Positions 54,373-64,000 of a stretch of DNA of 64,000 nt are shown here, in pieces. Numbering within the stretch: the first letter of the stretch is position 1; each line of letters begins with the position of its first letter. The stretch spans positions 1,116,001-1,180,000 of the forward strand of contig NZ_FNSV01000005.1 in NCBI RefSeq assembly GCF_900105905.1, written 5' to 3'. Source of the stretch: Rhodococcus koreensis. GTDB lineage: Bacteria > Actinomycetota > Actinomycetes > Mycobacteriales > Mycobacteriaceae. The translations under genes were made by a program, and so were the position numbers. The notes beneath the pieces are model-generated. The model saw nothing but the letters and a program-made list of their open reading frames with translations. It was not told where the DNA came from and ran no database searches.

Positions 54373-55496
54373 GAGCCGACCTCCCGCACGCCGTCGCGGC
54401 CGACGGTGACCGTCTCGTAGACACGCAGGATCTGCTCGGCCACCACCGGCCAGTCGTATTCGGTGACCACTGTGCGGCCGACGTCGGTGAGCGCGGCGCT
54501 GCGCTCGGGGTCGCCGAGCACCGAGTCGATCCCGGCGGCGAGCGCCGCCGCATCCCCCACCGGCACCAGCACGCCCGCCTGCCCGTCCCGCAGGACCCGG
54601 CGGAATGCGTCCAGTTCGCTCGCCACGACGGCGGCTCCGGCGGCCATCGCCTCCACCAGCACGATGCCGAAGCTCTCACCGCCGAGGTTGGGGGCGCAGT
54701 ACACGTCGGCGCTCCGCAGCGCCGACGCCTTCTCGGCGTCGTCGACCTGGCCGAGCAGACGCAGATGCCCGAACACCGGGCCCGCCTCGCGGCGCAACTT
54801 GTCCTCGTCGCCGCGGCCGACCACCAGCACCTCGAGATCGGGATACTTCTCCACCAGCGTGGGCAGCGCCTTCAGGAGCACGGCCATGCCCTTGCGGGGC
54901 TCGTCGTAGCGGCCGAGGAAGAGGATGGTCTTGCCGGGGCGCGGATAGCCGGGCAGCGGTTCGGCGTGCGCGAACGCCGGGACGTCGACGCCGTTCGGGA
55001 TTTCGACGGCGTCGGAGCCGAGCGATTCCACCTGCCAGCGCCGCGCGAGTTCCGATACCGCGATGCGCCCGCTGATCTTCTCCAGGTACGGCTGGAGCAC
55101 ACCCTGAAACGTGCTCAGCACCAACGACTTCGTGGTCGAGGTGTGGAACGTCGCCACGATGGGCCCCTCCGCCACCCGCATGGCGAGCATCGACAGGCTC
55201 GGCGCGTTGGGCTCGTGGATGTGCAGGACGTCGAAGTCGTTGTCCGAGATCCAGCGCCGGACCCGGGCACTCGCGGCGGGGCCGAAACTCAGCCGGGCCA
55301 CCGAACCGTTGTAGGGAATCGCGAGGGCGCGTCCCGCCGACACGACGAAACCGGGCAGGTCGACGTCGTCGGACGCCGGCGCCAGGACGCTCACCTTGTG
55401 CCCGCGCTCGATCAGGACCTCCGCGAGGTCGACGACGTGGGCTTGCACTCCGCCCGGGACGTCGAACGAGTACGGGCAGACCATGCCGATCTTCAC
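54369..55496 (-). CDS. pimA: Phosphatidylinositol alpha-mannosyltransferase PimA
   Basis: A 375-residue GT4 glycosyltransferase that moves mannose from GDP-mannose to phosphatidylinositol, the first step in PIM/LM/LAM synthesis at the inner membrane face. Signatures: MVCPYSFDVPGGVQAHVVDL at the start, VLHIHEPNAPSLSMLAM, FLGRYDEPRKGMAVLLKALP and the EX7E region GESFGIVLVEAMAAGAAVVA. Start GTG 55496 overlaps the patA stop. The upstream frame to 55673 lies in patA. Confidence 0.95.
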   Translation of the reverse strand: MKIGMVCPYSFDVPGGVQAHVVDLAEVLIERGHKVSVLAPASDDVDLPGFVVSAGRALAIPYNGSVARLSFGPAASARVRRWISDNDFDVLHIHEPNAPSLSMLAMRVAEGPIVATFHTSTTKSLVLSTFQGVLQPYLEKISGRIAVSELARRWQVESLGSDAVEIPNGVDVPAFAHAEPLPGYPRPGKTILFLGRYDEPRKGMAVLLKALPTLVEKYPDLEVLVVGRGDEDKLRREAGPVFGHLRLLGQVDDAEKASALRSADVYCAPNLGGESFGIVLVEAMAAGAAVVASELDAFRRVLRDGQAGVLVPVGDAAALAAGIDSVLGDPERSAALTDVGRTVVTEYDWPVVAEQILRVYETVTVGRDGVREVGS

Positions 55497-56398
55497 GAGT
55501 TCTCCATACGGGAGAGCCTCGCCTGCGACAGGTCGGACAGCCACAGCGGCTGAAGCATGTGCCAGTCCTCGGGATGTGCGGCGATGTTGGCCTCGAACCG
55601 GTCCGCCAGGACCTGGGTCGCCGCGGCCACGCCCGCGGTCGTGTCGATCGGCGGGTCGATGCGGAAACCCCACCCGCTGTCGGTGAACCAGCAGTGCACC
55701 GGCAGCAGCGGCGCACCGGTGTCGATCGCCAGCTTGGCGGGACCGGCGGGCATGCGGGTCGGTTCCCCGAAGAACGTCACCGGGACCCCCTTCTTCGCCA
55801 GGTCGCGTTCACCGAGGAGACACACGATGCCGTTGTCCCGCAGCCGCTCCGACAGTTCCACGAACGGGGGGTGCTCACCGCCGCTGAGCGGGAAGATCTC
55901 GAAGCCGAGGCCTTCGCGGTAGTCGACGAACCGCTGGTACAGCGATTCGGGTTTCAGCCGTTCGGCGACCGTGGACAGGCCACCCCAGTGCTGGGCGCAC
56001 CACACACCGGCCATGTCCCAGTTGCCGCTGTGCGGAAGTGCGAGAATCGCGCCCCGGCCGGCTTCCTTCGCGGCGTCGAGGTGCTTCTGTCCCTCGATCA
56101 GCTCGTCGAGGGCGGCGCCGGTCTTCACCAGGTCCATCGACGGCAGCCGGAACGCCTCCCGCCAGTACCGTGCGTAGGACCGCATCGACGCCCGCATCAG
56201 CGCATCGGGCACCTCGGCGGGGGTCACCCCCAGCACCCGGGCGAGGTTGCGGCGCAACTGGTCCGGGCCGCCGTTCCGGACGGCGAAGTCGGCTCCCCTG
56301 TCGAACAGGGTGACCGCGGCCTTCTCGGGCAGGGCACGCACCAGCCGCCAGCCTGCCGCGTACCCCAGGTCGCTGAGGCGTTCGGACACGCCGCTCAC
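55493..56398 (-). CDS. patA: Phosphatidylinositol mannoside acyltransferase PatA
   Basis: A 301-residue membrane-associated acyltransferase of the LpxL-like family. The HX4D motif is ILALPHSGNWDMAG, and GVPVTFFGEPTRMPAGPAKL is a second conserved block. It adds an acyl chain to the mannose of PIM1/PIM2. It starts at GTG 56398, overlapping the pgsA stop by four bases, and overlaps pimA in turn. Confidence 0.92.
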   Translation of the reverse strand: MSGVSERLSDLGYAAGWRLVRALPEKAAVTLFDRGADFAVRNGGPDQLRRNLARVLGVTPAEVPDALMRASMRSYARYWREAFRLPSMDLVKTGAALDELIEGQKHLDAAKEAGRGAILALPHSGNWDMAGVWCAQHWGGLSTVAERLKPESLYQRFVDYREGLGFEIFPLSGGEHPPFVELSERLRDNGIVCLLGERDLAKKGVPVTFFGEPTRMPAGPAKLAIDTGAPLLPVHCWFTDSGWGFRIDPPIDTTAGVAAATQVLADRFEANIAAHPEDWHMLQPLWLSDLSQARLSRMENS

Positions 56399-57060
56399 TG
56401 CGCGGTCGCCTGTCCGTCTTCCGGCGTCGGATCTGCGGGCGGCAGGGGCAGCACGTCCCGCGCCCCCGGCGACCGGCGGACCGCCAGAACCCGCTGGAAC
56501 ACGGTGATCACGCTGCCCGCCGACAGCAACCACATCGCGACGTGCACGGCCCACGGCACTCCGAGCCCGGTGACGCCGGCGCCGACGAGCACGATGATCA
56601 GCCGATCGGGCCGTTCGATGAGGCCGCCGTCGGCGGACAGTCCGCTCGCCTCGGCGCGCGCCTTGGCGTACGAGATCACCTGCGACGTGACGAGGCACAG
56701 CAGCGTCGCGATCAGCAGCGGCTTGCTGTTCTCGTGGTAGACGGCCCACCAGGCGAGGCCGGCGAAGATCGCGCCGTCGGCCACCCGGTCGCAGGTGGCG
56801 TCGAGCACGGCGCCGTACCTGGTCCCGCCGCCCCGCGCGCGTGCCATCGCGCCGTCCAGCATGTCGAACATCACGAACAGCCAGATGAACATCGCTCCCC
56901 AGAACAGATGTCCGCTGGGAAACAGTGTGACCGCACCCGCCACGGTCGCGACGGTGCCGATGACGGTGACGGAATCGGGGGTGAGCCCGGTCTTGACCAG
57001 GGCCTTCCCCAGCGGCGCCGTCACCTTGGACACCGATGCCCGCCCGAAGAAGCTCAGCAC
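56395..57060 (-). CDS. pgsA: Phosphatidylinositol phosphate synthase (CDP-alcohol phosphotransferase)
   Basis: A 221-residue membrane enzyme starting at GTG with about six helices. The CDP-OH-P motif DGx2ARx8Gx3Dx3D is complete (DMLDGAMARARGGGTRYGAV with LDATCDR). By its place before patA and pimA it is the PgsA1-type enzyme that joins CDP-diacylglycerol to inositol phosphate. The C-terminal ~25 residues are a Pro/Asp-rich tail. Confidence 0.93.
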   Translation of the reverse strand: MLSFFGRASVSKVTAPLGKALVKTGLTPDSVTVIGTVATVAGAVTLFPSGHLFWGAMFIWLFVMFDMLDGAMARARGGGTRYGAVLDATCDRVADGAIFAGLAWWAVYHENSKPLLIATLLCLVTSQVISYAKARAEASGLSADGGLIERPDRLIIVLVGAGVTGLGVPWAVHVAMWLLSAGSVITVFQRVLAVRRSPGARDVLPLPPADPTPEDGQATAQ

Positions 57061-57139
57061 CTCTCCACCCCGTTCTTCACTTCCCGACAGGAACCCCGAA
57101 CGCGTGAGTCAGCGACTCGCGCGTCATTCATCTATCGCG

Positions 57140-57715
57140 TCATTCATTCCAGGCCTTCGCCAGCAGCCCCCGGGTCTCGCGCAGCAATTGCGGCATGACC
57201 TTGACCCCGGCGAGGACCGTGATGAAGTTCGCGTCTCCGCCCCAGCGCGGAACGATGTGCTGATGCAGGTGCTCGGCGAGCGAACCACCCGCCGCCGCAC
57301 CGAGATTGAGGCCGACGTTGAAACCGTCCGGCCGCGACACCCGCTTGATCACGCGCAGCGCCTGCTGTGTGAACGACATCAGCTCGGCGCTTTCCTCTTC
57401 CGTCAGGTCCTCGAGCGCCGCGACCTTGCGGTAGGGCACCACCATCAGGTGCCCCGGGTTGTACGGGTACAGGTTGAGCACCGCGTACACGTGCTCCCCG
57501 CGGGCGACGATCAGCCCGTCCTCGTCGTCCATCTTCGGGATGTCGATGAACGGCTCGTTCGGGGTGTCCCGCGACTTCGGCGTCTCGGCGATGTACGACA
57601 TGCGGTGCGGCGACCAGATCCGCTGAAGGTGATCGGGCTCGCCGGGGCCGCGGTCGACCAGGCGGCCGGGGCCGCCGAGCATCTCGTCGGCCGTCAGGTC
57701 GTCACCTCCGGTCAT
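57140..57715 (-). CDS. HIT-family hydrolase/phosphorylase, Rv2613c-like
   Basis: A 191-residue histidine-triad protein. The triad is SLAEHLHQHIVPRWGG (HxHxHxx), preceded by LNLYPYNPGHLMVVPYRKVA. The M. tuberculosis ortholog Rv2613c has been described as an Ap4A phosphorylase, so nucleotide polyphosphate breakdown is likely. Start ATG 57715 (MTGGDDLTADEM) has AGGAAGG about nine bases upstream; a GTG at 57724 overlapping the thrS stop is possible but too close to the ribosome site. Confidence 0.9.
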   Translation of the reverse strand: MTGGDDLTADEMLGGPGRLVDRGPGEPDHLQRIWSPHRMSYIAETPKSRDTPNEPFIDIPKMDDEDGLIVARGEHVYAVLNLYPYNPGHLMVVPYRKVAALEDLTEEESAELMSFTQQALRVIKRVSRPDGFNVGLNLGAAAGGSLAEHLHQHIVPRWGGDANFITVLAGVKVMPQLLRETRGLLAKAWNE

Positions 57716-57720
57716 GTGCG

Positions 57721-59778
57721 TCACCCTTCCTGACCGGATTGCAGCAGTTCCGCGGTCGGCGAGGCGTTCTCGCGGCGGCCGATCCACTCGGTGACGATGC
57801 GCACGGCGTCGTCCACGGACACCCCGTTGACCTGGGTGCCGTCGCGGAATCGGAAGCTTACGGCGCCGGCTTCGACGTCGCGCGCACCCGCCAGCAGCAT
57901 GAACGGCACCTTCTGCGCCGTGTGGTTGAAGATCTTCTTCTGCATGCGGTCGTCGCTCGCGTCGACCTCGGCGCGGACACCGGCGGCCTTCAGCCGCTTC
58001 ACCACGTCGAAGAGGTGATCGGCGAACGTCTCGGCCACCGGGATGCCGACCACCTGGACGGGCGCCAGCCAGGCGGGGAACGCACCCGCGTAGTGCTCGG
58101 TGAGCACACCGAAGAACCGTTCGATGGAGCCGAACAGGGCCCGGTGGATCATCACCGGCCGCTGCTTGGTGCCGTCGTTGGCGGTGTATTCGAGGTCGAA
58201 CCGCTCGGGCAGGTTGAAGTCGAGCTGAATGGTCGACATCTGCCAGGTGCGCCCCAGGGCGTCCTGCACCTGCACCGAGATCTTCGGGCCGTAGAACGCG
58301 GCGCCACCCGGATCGGGAACGAGGTTCAGCCCCGACGACTCCGCGACCTCGGCCAGCGTCGCCGTCGCTTCCTCCCACACGGCGTCGTCGCCGACGAACT
58401 TGTCCGGGTTCTTGGTGGACAGCTCGAGGTAGAAGTCGTCCAGTCCGTAGTCCTTCAGCAGGCCGAGGACGAACTGCAGGGTGGTCGCCAGTTCGTCGCG
58501 CATCTGCTCGCGGGTGCAGTAGATGTGCGCGTCGTCCTGCGTCATACCCCGCACGCGGGTCAGTCCGTGGACGACACCCGACTTCTCGTACCGGTACACC
58601 GAACCGAACTCGAAGAGCCGCAACGGCAGTTCGCGGTACGACCGTCCGCGGGACCGGAAGATGAGGTTGTGCATCGGGCAGTTCATCGGCTTGAGGTAGT
58701 AGTCCTGGCCCGGCTTGCGCACGGTGCCGTCCTCGTTCAGTTCCTCGTCGATGTGCATCGCGGGGAACATGCCGTCGCGGTACCAGTCCAGGTGACCCGA
58801 CACCTCGTAGAGGTGGCCCTTGGTGATGTGGGGGGTGTTGACGAACTCGTACCCCTCCTCGACGTGGCGCTTGCGGGAGTAGTCCTCCATCTCGGTGCGG
58901 ATGATCCCGCCCCGGGGATGGAACACGGGCAGTCCCGAGCCGAGCTCGTCGGGGAAGCTGAACAGGTCGAGTTCCGACCCCAGTTTGCGGTGGTCGCGGC
59001 GCTCGGCCTCGGCGAGCAGTTCCAGGTGCTGCTCCTGCGCCTCCGCCGACTCCCACGCGGTGCCGTAGATGCGCTGGAGGTCGGCGTTGTCCTGGTTGCC
59101 GCGCCAGTACGCCGCCGAGCTGCGGGTGAGCTTGAACGCGGGGATGTGCTTGGTGGTGGGAATGTGCGGGCCGCGGCACAGGTCACCCCACACCTTCTCG
59201 CCGGTCCGCGGGTCCAGGTTGTCGTAGATGGTGAGCTCGTTGCCGCCCACCTCCATGATCTCCGGATCGTCGATTCCCGACTTGTCGTCGATGAGTTCGA
59301 GCTTGAAGGGCTCGTTCGCCAGTTCGGCGCGGGCCTCCTCCAGCGAATCGACGACGCGGCGCGAGAACCGCTGTGATCCCTTGACGATCTTCTTCATCCG
59401 CTTCTCGAGGTTCGCGAGGTCCTCGGGAGTGAAGGGGCGTTCGACGGCGAAGTCGTAGTAGAAGCCGTCCTTGATCGGCGGGCCGATGCCGAGTTTGGCC
59501 TCGGGGAATTCCTGCTGGACAGCCTGCGCGAGCACGTGCGCCGCCGAGTGGCGGATGACGCTGCGGCCGTCGTCGGTGTTCGCCGCGACCGGTTCGACCT
59601 CGACGTCGGCGTCGGGCACCCAGGACAGGTCCTTGAGCTGGCCCTCGGCGTCACGGACCACGACGACGACGTCCGGGCCCTTGCTGGGGTAGCCGGCCTC
59701 CCGAACCGCTGTACCGGCCGTCGTCCCCGCGGGCACCCGGACGAGGGTGGCTGGGGCGGCGGATGCGGGGGTGCTCAC
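57721..59778 (-). CDS. thrS: Threonyl-tRNA synthetase
   Basis: A 685-residue class II synthetase starting at GTG. N-terminal TGS domain, the editing domain with HxxxH ([20 protein letters not shown]) and its CRGPHIP zinc region, motif 2 ([20 protein letters not shown] with DDAHIYC) and motif 3 ([20 protein letters not shown]), then the anticodon domain. All active-site and editing elements are present. It heads the transcript that continues into the HIT, pgsA, patA, pimA genes. Confidence 0.97.
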
Positions 59779-59873
59779 GGCGATGTTCTCCTAGGTGAGG
59801 TGTGCGGTGCAGACATGGTGAATGTGCCAGCCCATGTTATCGGCCCAGCAGTGACACCCAATCATGCGTCCGG

Positions 59874-60347
59874 CTAGAGCGGGCTCTCCAGCCACGGGTA
59901 GTCGAGGCCGATCCACGTCCCGACGAGCCCGAACGTCCCGAGCAACCACAGCGTGGCGAGTACGACGGCACACGTCAGCAGCGCGCCCGCCCCCTTGACC
60001 ACCAGCGACTGCCGCGAGAACCAGTCCATGAACTTGTCGTAGCGCTGCCGCGCGTAGTGCAGCAACCGGTGCGCCCACGCGAACTCGGACGCGAGGATTC
60101 CGAGCCCCGCGAATACGATCAGCCAGCCGGGGCCGGGGTACGGGATCGCGACGATCCCGGCGGCGAGCACGAGAACGCCGATCACCCCCACCACGATGCG
60201 GTACGCCAGGTTGAGGCTCGGGCGCGCGGCGACGTGTGCCCGCCACCGGCGCCAGCGGCTCTCCGCTTCCTGGAACGGGGACAGATCCGAGTCGTCCACA
60301 TCCCCGTTCTCGGGCGCGGGTCCCGGTCGAGCTTCTCTGCTGGTCAC
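59874..60347 (-). CDS. PGPGW-motif transmembrane protein (TIGR02611-like)
   Basis: A 157-residue protein starting at GTG. After a charged 45-residue N-terminus come transmembrane helices with the signature AIPYPGPGWLIVFAGLGILA, then an amphipathic helix EFAWAHRLLHYARQRYDKFM and a final hydrophobic helix. The family is small and of unknown function. It is 27 bases upstream of rtcB's 3' end on the same strand and may be read through from it. Confidence 0.85.
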   Translation of the reverse strand: MTSREARPGPAPENGDVDDSDLSPFQEAESRWRRWRAHVAARPSLNLAYRIVVGVIGVLVLAAGIVAIPYPGPGWLIVFAGLGILASEFAWAHRLLHYARQRYDKFMDWFSRQSLVVKGAGALLTCAVVLATLWLLGTFGLVGTWIGLDYPWLESPL

Positions 60348-60376
60348 CAGTCCACCCTACCGACCGCGACCTGCGG

Positions 60377-61579
60377 TCACCCCTTCACACAGACGACCTG
60401 CCGCAGGTGTGCCACGACCTCGACGAGATCGGCCTGCGCTTCGATCACCTGCTCGATGTCCTTGTAGGCGCCGGGGATCTCGTCGATCACGCCGGCGTCC
60501 TTGCGCGACTCGACGCCGGACGTCTGCCGCACCAGGTCGTCGACGGTGAACCTCTTCTTCGCCTTGGTGCGGCTCATCGTCCGTCCCGCCCCGTGCGACG
60601 CCGAATTGAACGACAACTCGGAGCCCAGGCCCCGCACCACGTAGGAACCGGTGCCCATCGACCCGGGGATGAGTCCGAGATCACCCCGGCCCGCCCGGAT
60701 CGCGCCCTTACGCGTGACGAGCATCGGCTCGCCGTCGACGATCTCCTCCGACACATAGTTGTGGTGACAGGAGATCGGCTCGTCGAAGCGCACCGTCCTG
60801 CCGGGCAGGGACTGCCGGAAGGCCTGCATCACCAACGTGAGCATGACGGCACGGTTCCGGGCCGCGTATTCCTGCGCCCACGTCAGGTCGTGGCGGTACG
60901 CGTCCATCTCCTTGCTGCCTGCGAGGAACACCGCGAGATCGCGATCGACCAGCCGCTGGTTGTGCGGCAGGGCCCGCGCCACCGCGATGTGCCGCTCCGC
61001 CAGCTCCTTACCGATGTTGCGTGACCCGGAGTGCAGCATCAGCCAGACCTCGTCGGCGTCCGACAGGCACACCTCGATGAAGTGGTTGCCGCCGCCGAGG
61101 GTGCCGATCTGCTTCATCGCCCGCGACTCCCGGGACTGCACGCCGGAATGCAGGTCGCCGAACTCCTGCCAGAAGCGGTGCCACCCCTTCTTCACTCCCC
61201 CGGCATCCGTACCCAGCGCGCCGACGTTCACCGAGTGCTCGTGCATGGCGAAACCGACGGGCACCGCCCGCTCGATGTGCGACCTCATCGACCGCAGGCT
61301 GTCGGGCAGGTCGCCCGCGGTCACATCGGTCCGGACCGCCGTCATTCCGCAGCCGATGTCGACGCCGACCGCCGCGGGGGCGACCGCCGCCCGCATCGCG
61401 ATGACGGAACCGACCGTCGCGCCCTTGCCCACGTGGACGTCGGGCATGACGCGGACCCCGTGCACCCACGGCAGGTCCGCCATGTTCCGCAGCTGCTGCA
61501 ACGCCGCCTGCTCGATGGTCTGCTCCTCCGCCCACATCAATGTCGGCGCGGTGGTGCCTTCCAGCCTCACGGGGAACAT
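60377..61579 (-). CDS. rtcB: RNA-splicing ligase RtcB
   Basis: A 400-residue RNA ligase that joins 2',3'-cyclic phosphate or 3'-phosphate ends to 5'-OH ends with GTP and Mn2+. Visible landmarks are MPDVHVGKGATVGSVIA, VGVDIGCGMTAVRTDV (metal-binding Asp/Cys), TLGGGNHFIEVCL, LMLHSGSRNIGKELAE, CHHNYVSEE and SASHGAGRTMSRTKA with the guanylated His. No archease gene is adjacent. M. tuberculosis Rv2631 is the ortholog. Confidence 0.95.
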   Translation of the reverse strand: MFPVRLEGTTAPTLMWAEEQTIEQAALQQLRNMADLPWVHGVRVMPDVHVGKGATVGSVIAMRAAVAPAAVGVDIGCGMTAVRTDVTAGDLPDSLRSMRSHIERAVPVGFAMHEHSVNVGALGTDAGGVKKGWHRFWQEFGDLHSGVQSRESRAMKQIGTLGGGNHFIEVCLSDADEVWLMLHSGSRNIGKELAERHIAVARALPHNQRLVDRDLAVFLAGSKEMDAYRHDLTWAQEYAARNRAVMLTLVMQAFRQSLPGRTVRFDEPISCHHNYVSEEIVDGEPMLVTRKGAIRAGRGDLGLIPGSMGTGSYVVRGLGSELSFNSASHGAGRTMSRTKAKKRFTVDDLVRQTSGVESRKDAGVIDEIPGAYKDIEQVIEAQADLVEVVAHLRQVVCVKG

Positions 61580-61687
61580 GGGACTTCAATCCTTCGGTAG
61601 CGGATCACCCGGGAAATTTCGGCCGGCTCAGTTCATTGTCCGTCGCGCCGGAGAGTGGCAACAACCGATTTTCCGAGTGCGCACACG

Positions 61688-61728
61688 AAAAAGAAGAGGC
61701 CGTTTCCGATTTCGGAAACGACCTCTTC
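61688..61728 (-). terminator. Intrinsic terminator after tRNA-Val(CAC)
   Basis: On the minus strand GAAGAGG and CGTTTCCG arms pair with their complements (one mismatch between the two stem parts) and are followed by TTTTT. It is the best canonical terminator in the window, ending the tRNA transcript before it reaches rtcB. Confidence 0.85.
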
Positions 61729-61734
61729 TCTCGG

Positions 61735-61806
61735 TGGTCCCGGCTGGGATCGAACCAGCGACCTTCCCGGTGTGAACGGGACGCTCTTCCACTGAGCCAC
61801 GGGACC
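61735..61806 (-). tRNA. tRNA-Val, anticodon CAC
   Basis: A 72-base cloverleaf with acceptor GGTCCCG..., D loop with GGCTCAGTGG, anticodon loop TTCACAC and T arm GGTTCGATCC. The acceptor arms GGTCCC/GGGACC pair perfectly. CCA is not encoded. It reads GUG codons. Confidence 0.93.
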
Positions 61807-62058
61807 GAGGCGCGCCAGACACTCGCGCTCGAACGAGTTGGAACATTAACAGACCCGGCGGCCGAACGAAAATCACCCCGATGGGATTCGTGTGGGATTC
61901 GTGCCGGACCCCGCATGCGGCGCGCCCGCGACCCGGTCCCGTTCACACGCAGTTCACCGTCTGATGCCTTGACCTGCAGATTTGTAACTATCGCGGATGG
62001 TCGGCTAATGTTCTCAACCGCACCACGGAGAACATTCTCCGCGAGTTACACGGTGCAT
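61807..62058 (+). promoter_or_regulatory. Promoter region of the tRNA cluster with a long inverted repeat
   Basis: No gene is seen in these 250 bases. A plausible promoter is TTGTAA (61982-61987), 18 bases, TAATGT (62006-62011). The -10 box lies in a nine-base inverted repeat AATGTTCTC (62007-62015) and GAGAACATT (62028-62036), and a second overlapping palindrome CGGAGAA-CA-TTCTCCG sits at 62026-62041. The palindromes may bind a regulator or fold the 5' leader of the tRNA precursor. Confidence 0.45.
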
Positions 62059-62131
62059 GCGGACGTGGCGCAGCTGGTAGCGCACAACCTTGCCAAGGTT
62101 GGGGTCGCGGGTTCGAATCCCGTCGTCCGCT
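62059..62131 (+). tRNA. tRNA-Gly, anticodon GCC (first copy)
   Basis: A 73-base cloverleaf: acceptor GCGGACG paired with CGTCCGC, anticodon loop TTGCCAA, T arm GGTTCGAATCC. Identical to the copy at 62380. Confidence 0.95.
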
Positions 62132-62155
62132 CGAGAGGTTGGACTCAACCTTTAC

Positions 62156-62226
62156 GGTGGAGTGGCCGAGTGGTGAGGCAACGGCCTGCAAAGCCGTGCA
62201 CACGGGTTCGATTCCCGTCTCCACCT
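62156..62226 (+). tRNA. tRNA-Cys, anticodon GCA
   Basis: A 71-base cloverleaf: acceptor GGTGGAG with CTCCACC, anticodon loop CTGCAAA, T arm GGTTCGATTCC. The only cysteine tRNA in the window and not duplicated. Confidence 0.94.
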
Positions 62227-62227
62227 C

Positions 62228-62299
62228 GCGCGATTAGCTCAGCGGGAGAGCGCTTCCCTGACACGGAAGAGGTCACTGGTTCAATCCCAGTATCGCGCA
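62228..62299 (+). tRNA. tRNA-Val, anticodon GAC (first copy)
   Basis: A 72-base cloverleaf: acceptor GCGCGAT with ATCGCGC, anticodon loop CTGACAC, T arm GGTTCAATCC. It begins one base after tRNA-Cys, so the two are processed from one precursor. Confidence 0.95.
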
Positions 62300-62354
62300 C
62301 CGAGATAGATGCTAGATGCTCGACTGTTAGATGTTTGACTTGCTCGACAGTGAC

Positions 62355-62370
62355 GGCCCCGCAAGGGGCC
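62355..62370 (+). terminator. Small hairpin between the two tRNA blocks
   Basis: GGCCCC-GCAA-GGGGCC with a GNRA tetraloop, followed by TT. It may partly end transcription after the first tRNA-Val or act as a processing site. Confidence 0.45.
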
Positions 62371-62379
62371 TTCACGAAT

Positions 62380-62452
62380 GCGGACGTGGCGCAGCTGGTA
62401 GCGCACAACCTTGCCAAGGTTGGGGTCGCGGGTTCGAATCCCGTCGTCCGCT
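62380..62452 (+). tRNA. tRNA-Gly, anticodon GCC (second copy)
   Basis: Base-for-base identical to the copy at 62059 across all 73 positions, followed by a run of T (CTCTTTTTT) before the next tRNA. Confidence 0.95.
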
Positions 62453-62468
62453 CTCTTTTTTCCGTCCC

Positions 62469-62540
62469 GCGCGATTAGCTCAGCGGGAGAGCGCTTCCCT
62501 GACACGGAAGAGGTCACTGGTTCAATCCCAGTATCGCGCA
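62469..62540 (+). tRNA. tRNA-Val, anticodon GAC (second copy)
   Basis: Identical to the copy at 62228 across 72 bases; here the next three bases happen to be CCA. It is followed by the strong hairpin at 62567. Confidence 0.95.
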
Positions 62541-62566
62541 CCATTTCGCGTTCAACAGAACAGTTC

Positions 62567-62607
62567 ACGACGTGCGGCCCCGGTCACAGACCGGGGCCGC
62601 ACGTCGT
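62567..62607. terminator. Strong hairpin ending the tRNA cluster and the LeuA-domain gene
   Basis: A perfect 18-bp inverted repeat (62567-62584 with 62590-62607, five-base loop) lies between the last tRNA and the stop of the convergent gene at 62614. Confidence 0.8.
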
Positions 62608-62613
62608 TGTGCG

Positions 62614-63102
62614 TCAGGCGGGTCGGAGCCGGTTGGCGCCGGAGATCATCGCCCGCAGAGTCGATTCCGTGCCGGACTCCCCGATTCCCATCGCCCAGAG
62701 CCGGATGCCGGCACTCTCACACAGCAGGAAGGTCGCTGTGCGGTGCCCGATCTCGTGCTGATGGAAAGACAGGATCTCCATCGCACACCCCGCGTCGTAC
62801 AGCATCGAGGTCATGGCGGCGACGGGGCCGGGCGCGCTCGCACCGGTCTTGCAGATCGATTCGCCGATGCCGAGGGTAGCTTCGAAATCCCACATTCCGG
62901 GTCCGGTCTTCGTTTCCGACCAGCTACCCAGGCGGAACGGGCCGTTGGACGGCGCGTAGACGGTGTCGAACGCCTTCCAGGCCATTCCGGCGGCCTCGGT
63001 GCGGAGTTCCGACGGCAGCGACTTGCCGTGGCGGGCGGCGAACGGGTCGGCGGCCGGTGCCGACGAGGGAAAGGTCGAAGCGAAAGAAGTGTTGGCGCTC
63101 AT
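62614..63102 (-). CDS. Stand-alone LeuA-type regulatory (leucine-binding) domain protein
   Basis: A 162-residue protein resembling only the C-terminal regulatory domain of 2-isopropylmalate synthase. The match is clearest in GPVAAMTSMLYDAGCAMEIL followed by SFHQHE, and in the end segment RLWAMGIGESGTESTLRAMI, which corresponds to the VWGVGI..S.TTASL.AV.SA.NR end of mycobacterial LeuA. The TIM-barrel catalytic domain is absent, and the first ~40 residues are low complexity. ATG 63102 has AGGAAG about nine bases upstream; that site can pair with GGTCCTCC in the leader. It may sense leucine or form mixed oligomers with LeuA. A long frame to 63147 would overlap the leader and is rejected. Confidence 0.75.
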   Translation of the reverse strand: MSANTSFASTFPSSAPAADPFAARHGKSLPSELRTEAAGMAWKAFDTVYAPSNGPFRLGSWSETKTGPGMWDFEATLGIGESICKTGASAPGPVAAMTSMLYDAGCAMEILSFHQHEIGHRTATFLLCESAGIRLWAMGIGESGTESTLRAMISGANRLRPA

Positions 63103-63174
63103 TCTCGTGGTCTTCCTGAAAGGAGGGAGGACCAACGCGTAGCTCAACGACCCGCAGCGAGGGGTCGGTCCGTA
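63103..63174 (-). promoter_or_regulatory. Attenuator leader of the LeuA-domain gene
   Basis: Between leader peptide and gene the RNA can form competing pairs: CGUAGC in the leader ORF with GCUACG; GGGGUC of the last codons with GACCCC; GACCC with GGGUC; GGACC with GGUCC; and GGUCCUCC (63126-63133) with the ribosome-site segment AGGAAGACC (63109-63117). This is the logic of translational or transcriptional attenuation: a ribosome stalled in the leader changes which pair forms and frees the ribosome site. Actinobacterial leuA genes are known to have leucine leaders of this sort. Confidence 0.65.
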
Positions 63175-63216
63175 TCAGACCCCGCTACGGCGGAGAACTA
63201 CGAGGATGCGCTGCAT
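63175..63216 (-). CDS. Branched-chain-amino-acid leader peptide
   Basis: A 13-residue ORF, MQRILVVLRRSGV, in which six of thirteen residues are Leu, Val or Ile (including two CUC Leu codons). It ends 72 bases before the LeuA-domain gene. No ribosome site precedes it; the ATG is seven bases after a TACAGT -10 box, so it is probably the first codon of a leaderless transcript. Confidence 0.7.
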   Translation of the reverse strand: MQRILVVLRRSGV

Positions 63217-63223
63217 GGAGGAC

Positions 63224-63253
63224 ACTGTAAGCGACAACCGTCCGCCGAGACAA
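63224..63253 (-). promoter_or_regulatory. Promoter of the leader peptide / LeuA-domain transcript
   Basis: Minus-strand TTGTCT (-35, 63253-63248), 18 bases, TACAGT (-10, 63229-63224). Transcription would start at or next to the leader ATG at 63216. Confidence 0.55.
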
Positions 63254-63332
63254 CCCCGGTGCGTGCGGTAGTGCCGGCGACGGTCGGGTGACGAAATCGT
63301 TACCCCTGCTTCTGGAACGTGAGGAATTCCTC
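63254..63332. promoter_or_regulatory. Divergent regulatory region with palindromes
   Basis: Between the leucine leader and the MFS leader ORF. It holds GGT-G-ACGA-AA-TCGT-T-ACC (63287-63304, one mismatch per arm) and the perfect palindrome GAGGAATTCCTC (63321-63332) that ends at the start of the small ORF. Both are candidate protein-binding sites; no clear -10/-35 pair can be named for the plus strand. Confidence 0.4.
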
Positions 63333-63374
63333 ATGTATCGTCGACTTTGCCATCCACCCCCCCGATGGCAATGA
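63333..63374 (+). CDS. Possible leader ORF before the MFS gene
   Basis: A 13-residue frame (MYRRLCHPPPRWQ) whose stop codon TGA forms the first bases of a 12-bp hairpin arm. It contains three consecutive prolines and rare Trp/Cys. A stop codon entering the hairpin is the geometry expected for leader-peptide control, but the GAGGAATTCCTC palindrome just before the ATG is only a weak ribosome site. Confidence 0.35.
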   Translation: MYRRLCHPPPRWQ

Positions 63375-63411
63375 GCCCCAGCCATGACCCCCCATCCAAG
63401 GCTGGGGCTCA
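63372..63411 (+). terminator. Terminator-like hairpin in the MFS leader
   Basis: TGAGCCCCAGCC (63372-63383) pairs perfectly with GGCTGGGGCTCA (63400-63411) around a 16-base loop and is followed by a T-rich GTCTTGTT. It lies 130 bases before the MFS start, so it could be an attenuator or the end of a small RNA. Confidence 0.55.
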
Positions 63412-63494
63412 GTCTTGTTCCGGGCACCTCACCGACCGTCGCTTTCGGACATATCGCCCGCCGATCCGGAGAACGCTGCGCATCCCCGCAAAGT

Positions 63495-63512
63495 ATTGGA
63501 CACTCGTCCAAT
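63495..63512. promoter_or_regulatory. TetR-type palindrome before the MFS gene
   Basis: ATTGGAC-ACTC-GTCCAAT, perfect seven-base arms with a four-base centre, ends 31 bases before the MFS start. The TTGGAC/GTCCAA form is typical of TetR-family operators. The regulator is not in the window to the left and may lie beyond the right edge. Confidence 0.6.
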
Positions 63513-63543
63513 CATCGGATGTCCACGATCGAAGGCCGGCCCC

Positions 63544-64000
63544 ATGACGGATCCACCACGCGCGGAAGTGTCCACCGACCACCGATCGGCACGGATCGCC
63601 GCCGCGGCCGCCTTCGGACTGCAGGGTTTTCTCCTCGCAGCCGTCCTCACCCAGCTGCCGCAGTACCAGGACCGATTCGGGTTCGACGACACGGTCATCG
63701 TGGTCGCCGTCGTGACCGTGTCCCTCATCGCCGGGGCGGGCAGCATCCTCGCCGAGCACCTGGCCCGCCGATTCTCCAGCAGGACGGCACTGCAACTCGG
63801 GCTCGCGACGATCGCGGCCGCAGGCGGGGTGCTCGGTTTCAGCCCGAACACCGCCGCCTTCTTCGTCTGCCTGTCCGCGTACGGGGCCGGACTCGGCATC
63901 GTCGACGCCGCCGCCAACATGCAGGCGGTGACGATCCAGCACGCCTACGGCCGCTTCATCCTGTCGTCGTTCCACGCGGTGTGGAGTGTCGGCGCCATTG
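63544..64000 (+). CDS. MFS transporter, N-terminal part (cut by window edge)
   Basis: The first 152 codons of a major facilitator. Four to five hydrophobic segments are visible (AAAAFGLQGFLLAAVLTQL, VIVVAVVTVSLIAGAGSILA, LQLGLATIAAAGGVLGFSPN, FFVCLSAYGAGLGIVDAAAN). The EHLARRFSSRTAL loop between helices 2 and 3 holds the place of the MFS A-motif. The substrate cannot be told; a TetR-like operator upstream suggests an inducible efflux role. The gene continues past the right end. Confidence 0.8.
   Translation, partial: MTDPPRAEVSTDHRSARIAAAAAFGLQGFLLAAVLTQLPQYQDRFGFDDTVIVVAVVTVSLIAGAGSILAEHLARRFSSRTALQLGLATIAAAGGVLGFSPNTAAFFVCLSAYGAGLGIVDAAANMQAVTIQHAYGRFILSSFHAVWSVGAI

Follow-up and report, generated by a model that had tools for sequence, protein, structure and literature searches.

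An orphan LeuA regulatory domain in the Mycobacteriaceae and the valine-codon leader ahead of it, an apparent version of the LEU element

The locus and the orphan protein

Towards one end of the window, by which we mean the whole 64,000-nucleotide stretch of Rhodococcus koreensis DNA that was analysed, the minus strand carries a short gene related to the C-terminal part of 2-isopropylmalate synthase (LeuA). This gene, referred to below as the orphan, stands behind a compact leader, and the locus comprises the following features.

62570..62604, no strand assigned: perfect 16-bp inverted repeat with a 3-nt loop and no T run (read from sequence)
62614..63102, minus strand: stand-alone LeuA linker-plus-regulatory-domain protein, 162 aa (profile, hhalign, fold)
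63108..63134, minus strand: sequestor, 63134-63126 (UGGUCCUCC) with 63116-63108 (GGAAGACCA), one mismatch, over the Shine-Dalgarno sequence (folding)
63129..63171, minus strand: pseudoknot (anti-sequestor), loop 63171-63164 with 63136-63129 (pairing counts)
63139..63201, minus strand: outer stem, 63201-63194 with 63146-63139, which includes the Val codons (alignment)
63152..63190, minus strand: hairpin P1, 63190-63180 with 63163-63152, leader stop codon in its loop (alignment)
63175..63216, minus strand: leader ORF MQRILVVLRRSGV, 13 codons plus stop (sequence, alignment)
63196..63201, minus strand: Val-Val codons GUA GUU, probable control codons (codon conservation)
63224..63229, minus strand: -10 box TACAGT, ending 7 nt ahead of the leader ATG (sequence and conservation)
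63248..63253, minus strand: -35-like TTGTCT, with an 18-nt spacer to the -10 box (read from sequence)

The inverted repeat lies between the orphan gene and convergent tRNA genes and is a possible shared 3' end; a pattern scan of 62540-63450 found no terminator-like site. The adjoining tRNA array (61733-62543) comprises Gly, Cys, Val, Gly and Val genes on the plus strand and tRNA-Val(cac) on the minus strand. Of the 28 named loci scanned, 10 have a similar array next to the orphan, each of them from Rhodococcus and one with two more genes, in keeping with the frequent position of Rhodococcus copies next to a tRNA array. Mycobacterium copies mostly adjoin a gene that, from its sequence, we take to be a cytochrome P450. 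The conserved neighbours within about 3 kb of the 80 named loci among the matches listed included no leu gene. Divergent from the orphan promoter, a stretch at 63346-63416 (plus strand) resembles the 6C small RNA with its two C-rich loops, scoring 30.4 bits against the Rfam cut-off of 47 and thus falling under it; this stretch likewise precedes the orphan at other loci of the genus among those listed.

The 162-aa protein lacks the catalytic barrel and matched only the C-terminal part of the 2-isopropylmalate synthase models. Taken by itself, it is a weak match to PF08502 (LeuA_dimer; E 0.0017, with 18.7 bits against a curated cut-off of 24.9), while the family is a clear one, with 45 of 62 members matching at E<=0.01. 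Comparison of the orphan family with LeuA domains in hhalign gave 98.7% and the fold is confident, so that homology to LeuA_dimer is borne out by profile and fold alike. The original prediction of a LeuA allosteric domain without its barrel stands in that respect and needs one amendment: part of the linker subdomain is retained as well, residues 6-160 of the orphan model aligning with LeuA 422-643. In the alignments, the loop that caps the leucine pocket of LeuA is reduced to a shortened turn. That loop closes over leucine in LeuA, and a mutation in it is reported with loss of feedback (excerpts of PMC11057210). From the shorter turn, the orphan may bind another ligand or none. In 19 other same-genus orphans the open frame is conserved, at 39-94% identity to the window protein. 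One orphan, at L023 (G014:C1:1476824-1477378), has a short tandem peptide repeat inserted ahead of the last strands of the domain.

The orphan is present in 26 of 28 genomes of the genus, its own included; the two without it are G016 (74% complete) and G018 (610 contigs, 7% contamination). A profile built from 20 orphans finds matches in 298 of 301 family genomes, some via LeuA alone, and a scan of named genomes yielded at least 80 orphan loci, those listed belonging to Rhodococcus, Prescottella, Mycobacterium, Mycolicibacterium, Mycolicibacter, Gordonia, Aldersonia, Antrihabitans and further Mycobacteriaceae. At E<=1e-12, a threshold that would miss a diverged orphan copy, no stand-alone copy was found among 130 genomes from other families in the order sample, the matches there lying in frames of at least 377 aa, or in 192 genomes of the phylum sample, where three matches lay in frames of 605-624 aa. 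Plasmids gave no match either. Judged by these searches, the orphan is limited to the family within the samples covered; the gene is real as predicted and is not peculiar to the window genome, having relatives across the family.

In a tree that sampled every second orphan row of alignment A3, a long branch leads to the orphans, which group as a single clade (100/100), and a 100/100 branch splits the LeuA of the family and LeuA from outside it from LeuA2, a second full-length LeuA, together with the orphans. This topology fits descent of the orphan from the LeuA2 line, with long branches that leave its position in the tree unsure. Sixteen genomes of the genus hold a second match to the orphan, in 13 of them directly downstream of a LeuA2-type leader. 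LeuA2 was seen at L148, L152, L174 and L029-L031; its leader peptide ends ALLLDCRGGA at L148 and GLLLDRRGGV at L152. In another genus, g30, the best orphan-profile E is mostly about 1e-5, which suggests loss of the orphan, and leuA retains its leader in the two loci opened (L155 and L161).

Codons, promoter and pairings of the leader

The leader precedes the orphan gene in all 75 named loci searched, a set drawn from the 80 loci among the matches listed with the near-copies L063, L068, L070, L071 and L093 excluded. Within the genus, alignment A1 covers 23 of 26 loci (near-copies L008, L018 and L022 excluded) and shows near-invariant leaders; a number of the named Rhodococcus loci come from contigs that are also among the genus genomes, so the two sets are not independent. 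Mean pairwise identity across 24 loci is 84% in the 49-nt leader core, 58.5% in the gene and 36% upstream. The predicted 13-residue leader peptide, MQRILVVLRRSGV, with six Leu/Val/Ile residues in the order I, L, V, V, L, V, is thus present as described and belongs to a leader conserved in relatives.

The promoter proposed for the leader is favoured by the conserved position of TACAGT and not by a generic promoter scan, which had no site at its threshold for the orphan leader; the promoter call therefore rests on conservation. In 68 of the 75 named loci the leader start follows the end of a TANNNT box by 7 or 8 nt (a count made without a chance control), and no such box lies within 3-14 nt of the start in three. 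The TTG at the -35-like position also occurs in same-genus sequences among those listed. As TACAGT ends 7 nt before the leader ATG, the leaderless start suggested earlier is plausible and the leader ORF is probably leaderless. Leaderless transcripts and upstream ORFs have been published for mycobacteria (excerpts of PMC4633059).

The amino acid that the leader encodes at its probable control position is valine. Consecutive Val codons occur in 72 of the 75 named leaders, the others (L074, L078 and L104) having a single Val before the hairpin. Three leaders were framed by eye (L074 MKRMKLVFRP, L078 MKRIKLVFRP and L116 MTCLLVVAHP), and the count of 72 is unchanged by them. Many Rhodococcus leader peptides read M-x-R-I-L-V-V-x-R-R-S-G-V and many from Mycobacterium V-P-R-R-L-V-V-A-T-R-S-G-V, and those of Prescottella and two relatives read M-Q-R-I-E/Q-V-V-V-H-R-R-S-G-V, giving six leaders with Val-Val-Val and no Leu. 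By contrast, all 18 leuA-type leaders have L-L-L after A, V, M, T or G. A Leu codon is also present in 65 of the 75 orphan leaders by script count. Of the 169 internal Val codons in the 75 leaders, 136 are GTA, compared with 3 of 116 in four genes of the window; because the outer stem favours GUA too, this codon choice cannot count as independent evidence for stalling. Leucine-type control of the orphan leader was accordingly dropped, since the conserved codons in the 75 named loci are those of valine. The term 'leucine-type' attenuator in the original prediction is probably wrong about what is sensed: to judge from its codons, the leader probably senses valine rather than leucine.

The pairings were counted in alignment A6, which joins 17 of 18 leuA-type leaders (without L144) with 38 of 40 chosen orphan leaders (L122 and L157, missed by the pattern, were left out). 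In these 55 leaders, 99.0% of 879 cells of the hairpin and pseudoknot are paired, against 28-55% in slid controls, with rows anchored by a pseudoknot-strand pattern that favours that helix. Five pairs change on both sides, and further pair types are not above shuffles (345/500). One pseudoknot pair is A-U in 35 rows, most orphans, and G-C in 17, the leuA leaders; among same-genus orphans the pseudoknot is invariant, and its two-sided change in A6 may be a single event. In a separate search with GACCG sought on the 5' side and the 3' side unanchored, a pseudoknot of at least 7 bp was found in 74 of the 75 named leaders, compared with 30 of 1500 shuffled regions. Three of the eight pairs of the outer stem show two-sided changes, one of these three being unpaired in 13 of 21 sequences.

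The downstream strand of the pseudoknot, GUYGGUC, has a second partner. The segment from GUYGGUC to the gene start folds at -12.0 kcal/mol against -7.9 when shuffled, better than the shuffled mean in 73 of 75 leaders, and in the fold examples printed it is mostly GUYGGUC, or its GGUC with the next bases, that pairs with the ribosome-binding region. The pairings of GUYGGUC with the hairpin loop and with the ribosome-binding region are mutually exclusive. The competing hairpins of the original prediction, one of them hiding the ribosome binding site, are thus supported in the 75 named leaders as sequestor and pseudoknot. An alternative pairing over the ribosome-binding site, as in a translational attenuator, is present with a small predicted effect on access: Shine-Dalgarno accessibility barely shifts, from 0.29 to 0.33 (74 of 75 leaders, L123 skipped), and the opening cost, 6.0 kcal/mol, drops modestly to 3.8 kcal/mol, with a decrease in 62 of 74 leaders (control 5.8, L123 again skipped). 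The terminator hairpin with a T run of a classical transcription attenuator was not found ahead of the gene by the pattern scan of 62540-63450.

A basal stem of the type described by Seliverstov and colleagues, in which leader codons pair with the Shine-Dalgarno sequence, looks plausible by eye in the window and was rejected on 23 leaders, with 69.6% paired, no two-sided change and a result not above shuffles. An Rfam search of 55000-64000 returned no leader family. The hairpin sequence is more conserved than pairing would appear to require and is set apart, as a whole block, from its leuA counterpart; possibly a factor or a trans RNA binds it.

Kinship with the leaders of leuA and leuA2

Two leader models were used, R1 built from same-genus orphan leaders and R2 from 17 leuA-type leaders. 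The best R1 match precedes the orphan in 26 of 28 genus genomes; seven of its 19 weaker matches were opened, of which six precede full-length leuA and one a second leuA. Across the family, R1 matches 109 of 121 genomes at E<=0.01, leuA leaders included. Conversely, the best R2 match (4e-24 to 4e-18 in all 28 genomes) stands before leuA in the seven loci opened (L032, L142-L147). Of the next 15 R2 matches (4e-16 to 7.5e-11), 13 precede the LeuA2 matches of the genus-wide orphan search, one (L174, opened) precedes LeuA2 and one, in G016, is unplaced. The orphan leaders come next, detected by R2 with E values of 2e-11 to 1e-7 in 26 of 28 genomes, and nothing better than 0.0024 follows in the 28 genomes. 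In the window's own genome, leuA scores 1.7e-23, the orphan 2.0e-9 and the next match 0.009. From the placement of these matches, the element would serve leuA, leuA2 and the orphan in the genus, as far as these models see.

The leaders of the genus g3 have diverged. All seven sampled genomes match the orphan profile (E 4e-16 to 1e-42), and all seven, which are among the 12 that R1 misses, have no R1 match. At loci L172 and L173, R1 and R2 find no leader even when filters are switched off, the best E values being 0.23 and 0.043. By eye, both loci have a short ORF, MQTNILKRVAKATNPGGGRQD and MQKNIRLRRVAEATNPGGGMD, with one Val and no Val-Val, running into a hairpin with the loop strand GGACURAC; downstream, GGUUGGUCC or GGGUCGGUCC is complementary to the loop, and GGACC lies immediately ahead of the gene. 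One pair is A-U in one of L172 and L173 and G-C in the other, again a compensated change. Since g3 seemingly keeps the pairings without Val-Val, the valine run would seem to be younger than the RNA switch or less widely retained.

The leuA leaders have been described as the LEU element (Seliverstov et al. 2005, PMC1262725). In the excerpts of that paper, its bearers are leuA and one Bifidobacterium transposase gene, none like the orphan. We recognised no description of the orphan gene or its leader in the literature searched, which mostly excluded subscription journals. Our comparison suggests that the orphan leader is a valine-type version of this known actinobacterial element.

A possible brake on the leucine branch

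We read the orphan as a family-wide paralogue of LeuA under a leaderless valine-type LEU element, one that may damp LeuA in trans; as a whole we hold this to be possible, short of probable. It is weakened by the g3 leaders, which lack Val-Val, by the small predicted gains in Shine-Dalgarno access, by the Streptomyces work cited in PMC1262725 and by the neighbourhoods without leu genes in the 80 named loci listed. The mechanism we propose draws on the leader described above, on the mycobacterial ilvB1 leader with LVVI codons, which works via attenuation (excerpts of PMC13236596), and on ketoisovalerate as the shared precursor of valine and leucine (excerpts of PMC8406616). Transcription would begin at or close to the leader AUG. 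When valyl-tRNA is scarce, a ribosome would stall at the GUA GUN codons and leave the loop GACCGAC free to hold GUYGGUC, so that the ribosome-binding region opens more easily and the gene is on. With valine plentiful, the ribosome would reach the UGA in the hairpin and mask the loop, GUYGGUC would pair with the ribosome-binding region and the gene would be off. The protein would most likely pair in trans with the regulatory domain of full-length 2-isopropylmalate synthase, as its homology, retained linker and shared leader type suggest. The valine codons point to damping, which would direct 2-ketoisovalerate to valine; inactivation of isopropylmalate synthase together with ketopantoate hydroxymethyltransferase gave higher valine output (excerpts of PMC8406616). 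In its most specific form, a detached LeuA domain made on valyl-tRNA shortage enters LeuA oligomers and slows the leucine branch at the ketoisovalerate fork, a version we put forward tentatively and would not call likely.

The same leader could serve the opposite effect, the orphan pairing with LeuA under branched-chain starvation to relieve leucine feedback and raise leucine flux. Since leuA and leuA2, which carry the leader too, have biosynthetic roles, all three genes may be induced to raise synthesis, and a Leu codon is found in most orphan leaders; however, the control codons are Val in the orphan against Leu-Leu-Leu in the leuA type, and leaders with Val-Val-Val and no Leu would be odd if leucine shortage were the trigger. 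We consider this effect distinctly unlikely. It is doubtful, to a lesser degree, that the orphan binds valine, ketoisovalerate or another ligand and controls, in place of LeuA, some other target such as a transcription factor or acetohydroxyacid synthase. Such a role would suit the long branch between orphans and LeuA, the altered capping loop and the neighbourhoods without leu genes in the 80 named loci listed, yet the leader type is common to leuA and leuA2 in the placed matches and part of the LeuA linker has been retained.

Instead of stalling ribosomes, the leader itself might be bound by a regulatory protein, the explanation that Seliverstov and colleagues favoured for the LEU element. 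The excess conservation of the hairpin sequence agrees with this, as do the g3 leaders and work cited in PMC1262725, in the excerpts of which the Streptomyces leuA leader does not behave as classical attenuation predicts. Against it stand the reading frame maintained from a start 7-8 nt after the -10 box and the paired Val codons, mostly the rarely used GTA, of 72 of 75 leaders, and we regard protein binding as rather unlikely. That the orphan is a relic, a leuA fragment kept by chance along with its leader, might be argued from lineages apparently without it, such as most g30 genomes; the conserved open frame in the 19 other same-genus members, the single fully supported clade and the confident fold make this highly improbable.

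Should the damping of LeuA by the orphan hold, valine supply would govern leucine synthesis via a regulatory subunit that acts in trans and is itself controlled by a leuA leader with changed codons. The orphan would then probably be a regulator missing so far from the picture of branched-chain amino acid synthesis, common to relatives across the mycobacterial family. It also illustrates a regulatory domain freed from its enzyme, behind an attenuator-type leader that was apparently copied along with part of its gene and had its leucine codons replaced by valine codons. The orphan leaders offer natural further versions for testing the LEU element, whose mechanism the excerpts of PMC1262725 leave open.

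Compared with the LeuA C-terminal linker and regulatory domain (PDB 1sr9 and 3fig), the orphan is 24-26% identical and differs by the missing barrel and a shorter leucine-capping loop. HisZ with the short HisG (excerpts of PMC9734150) provides a working analogy, being likewise a separate regulatory polypeptide for a committed biosynthetic enzyme; homology to the orphan is not claimed, and LeuA, the orphan's presumed enzyme, retains its own regulatory domain. The mycobacterial ilvB1 attenuator shares branched-chain codons in a short leader ORF and ends in a terminator (excerpts of PMC13236596), unlike the orphan leader, where none was found. With the LEU element (excerpts of PMC1262725) the orphan leader shares homology, as its detection by the leuA-leader model attests, and a common plan: a leader ORF entering a hairpin, a pseudoknot from loop to downstream strand (GCCGGUC in leuA leaders) and an involved ribosome-binding site. 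The two differ in that the LEU element has a Leu run, pairs its ribosome-binding site with leader codons and controls an enzyme, whereas the orphan leader has Val codons instead, pairs that site with the downstream strand of the pseudoknot and controls a regulatory domain.
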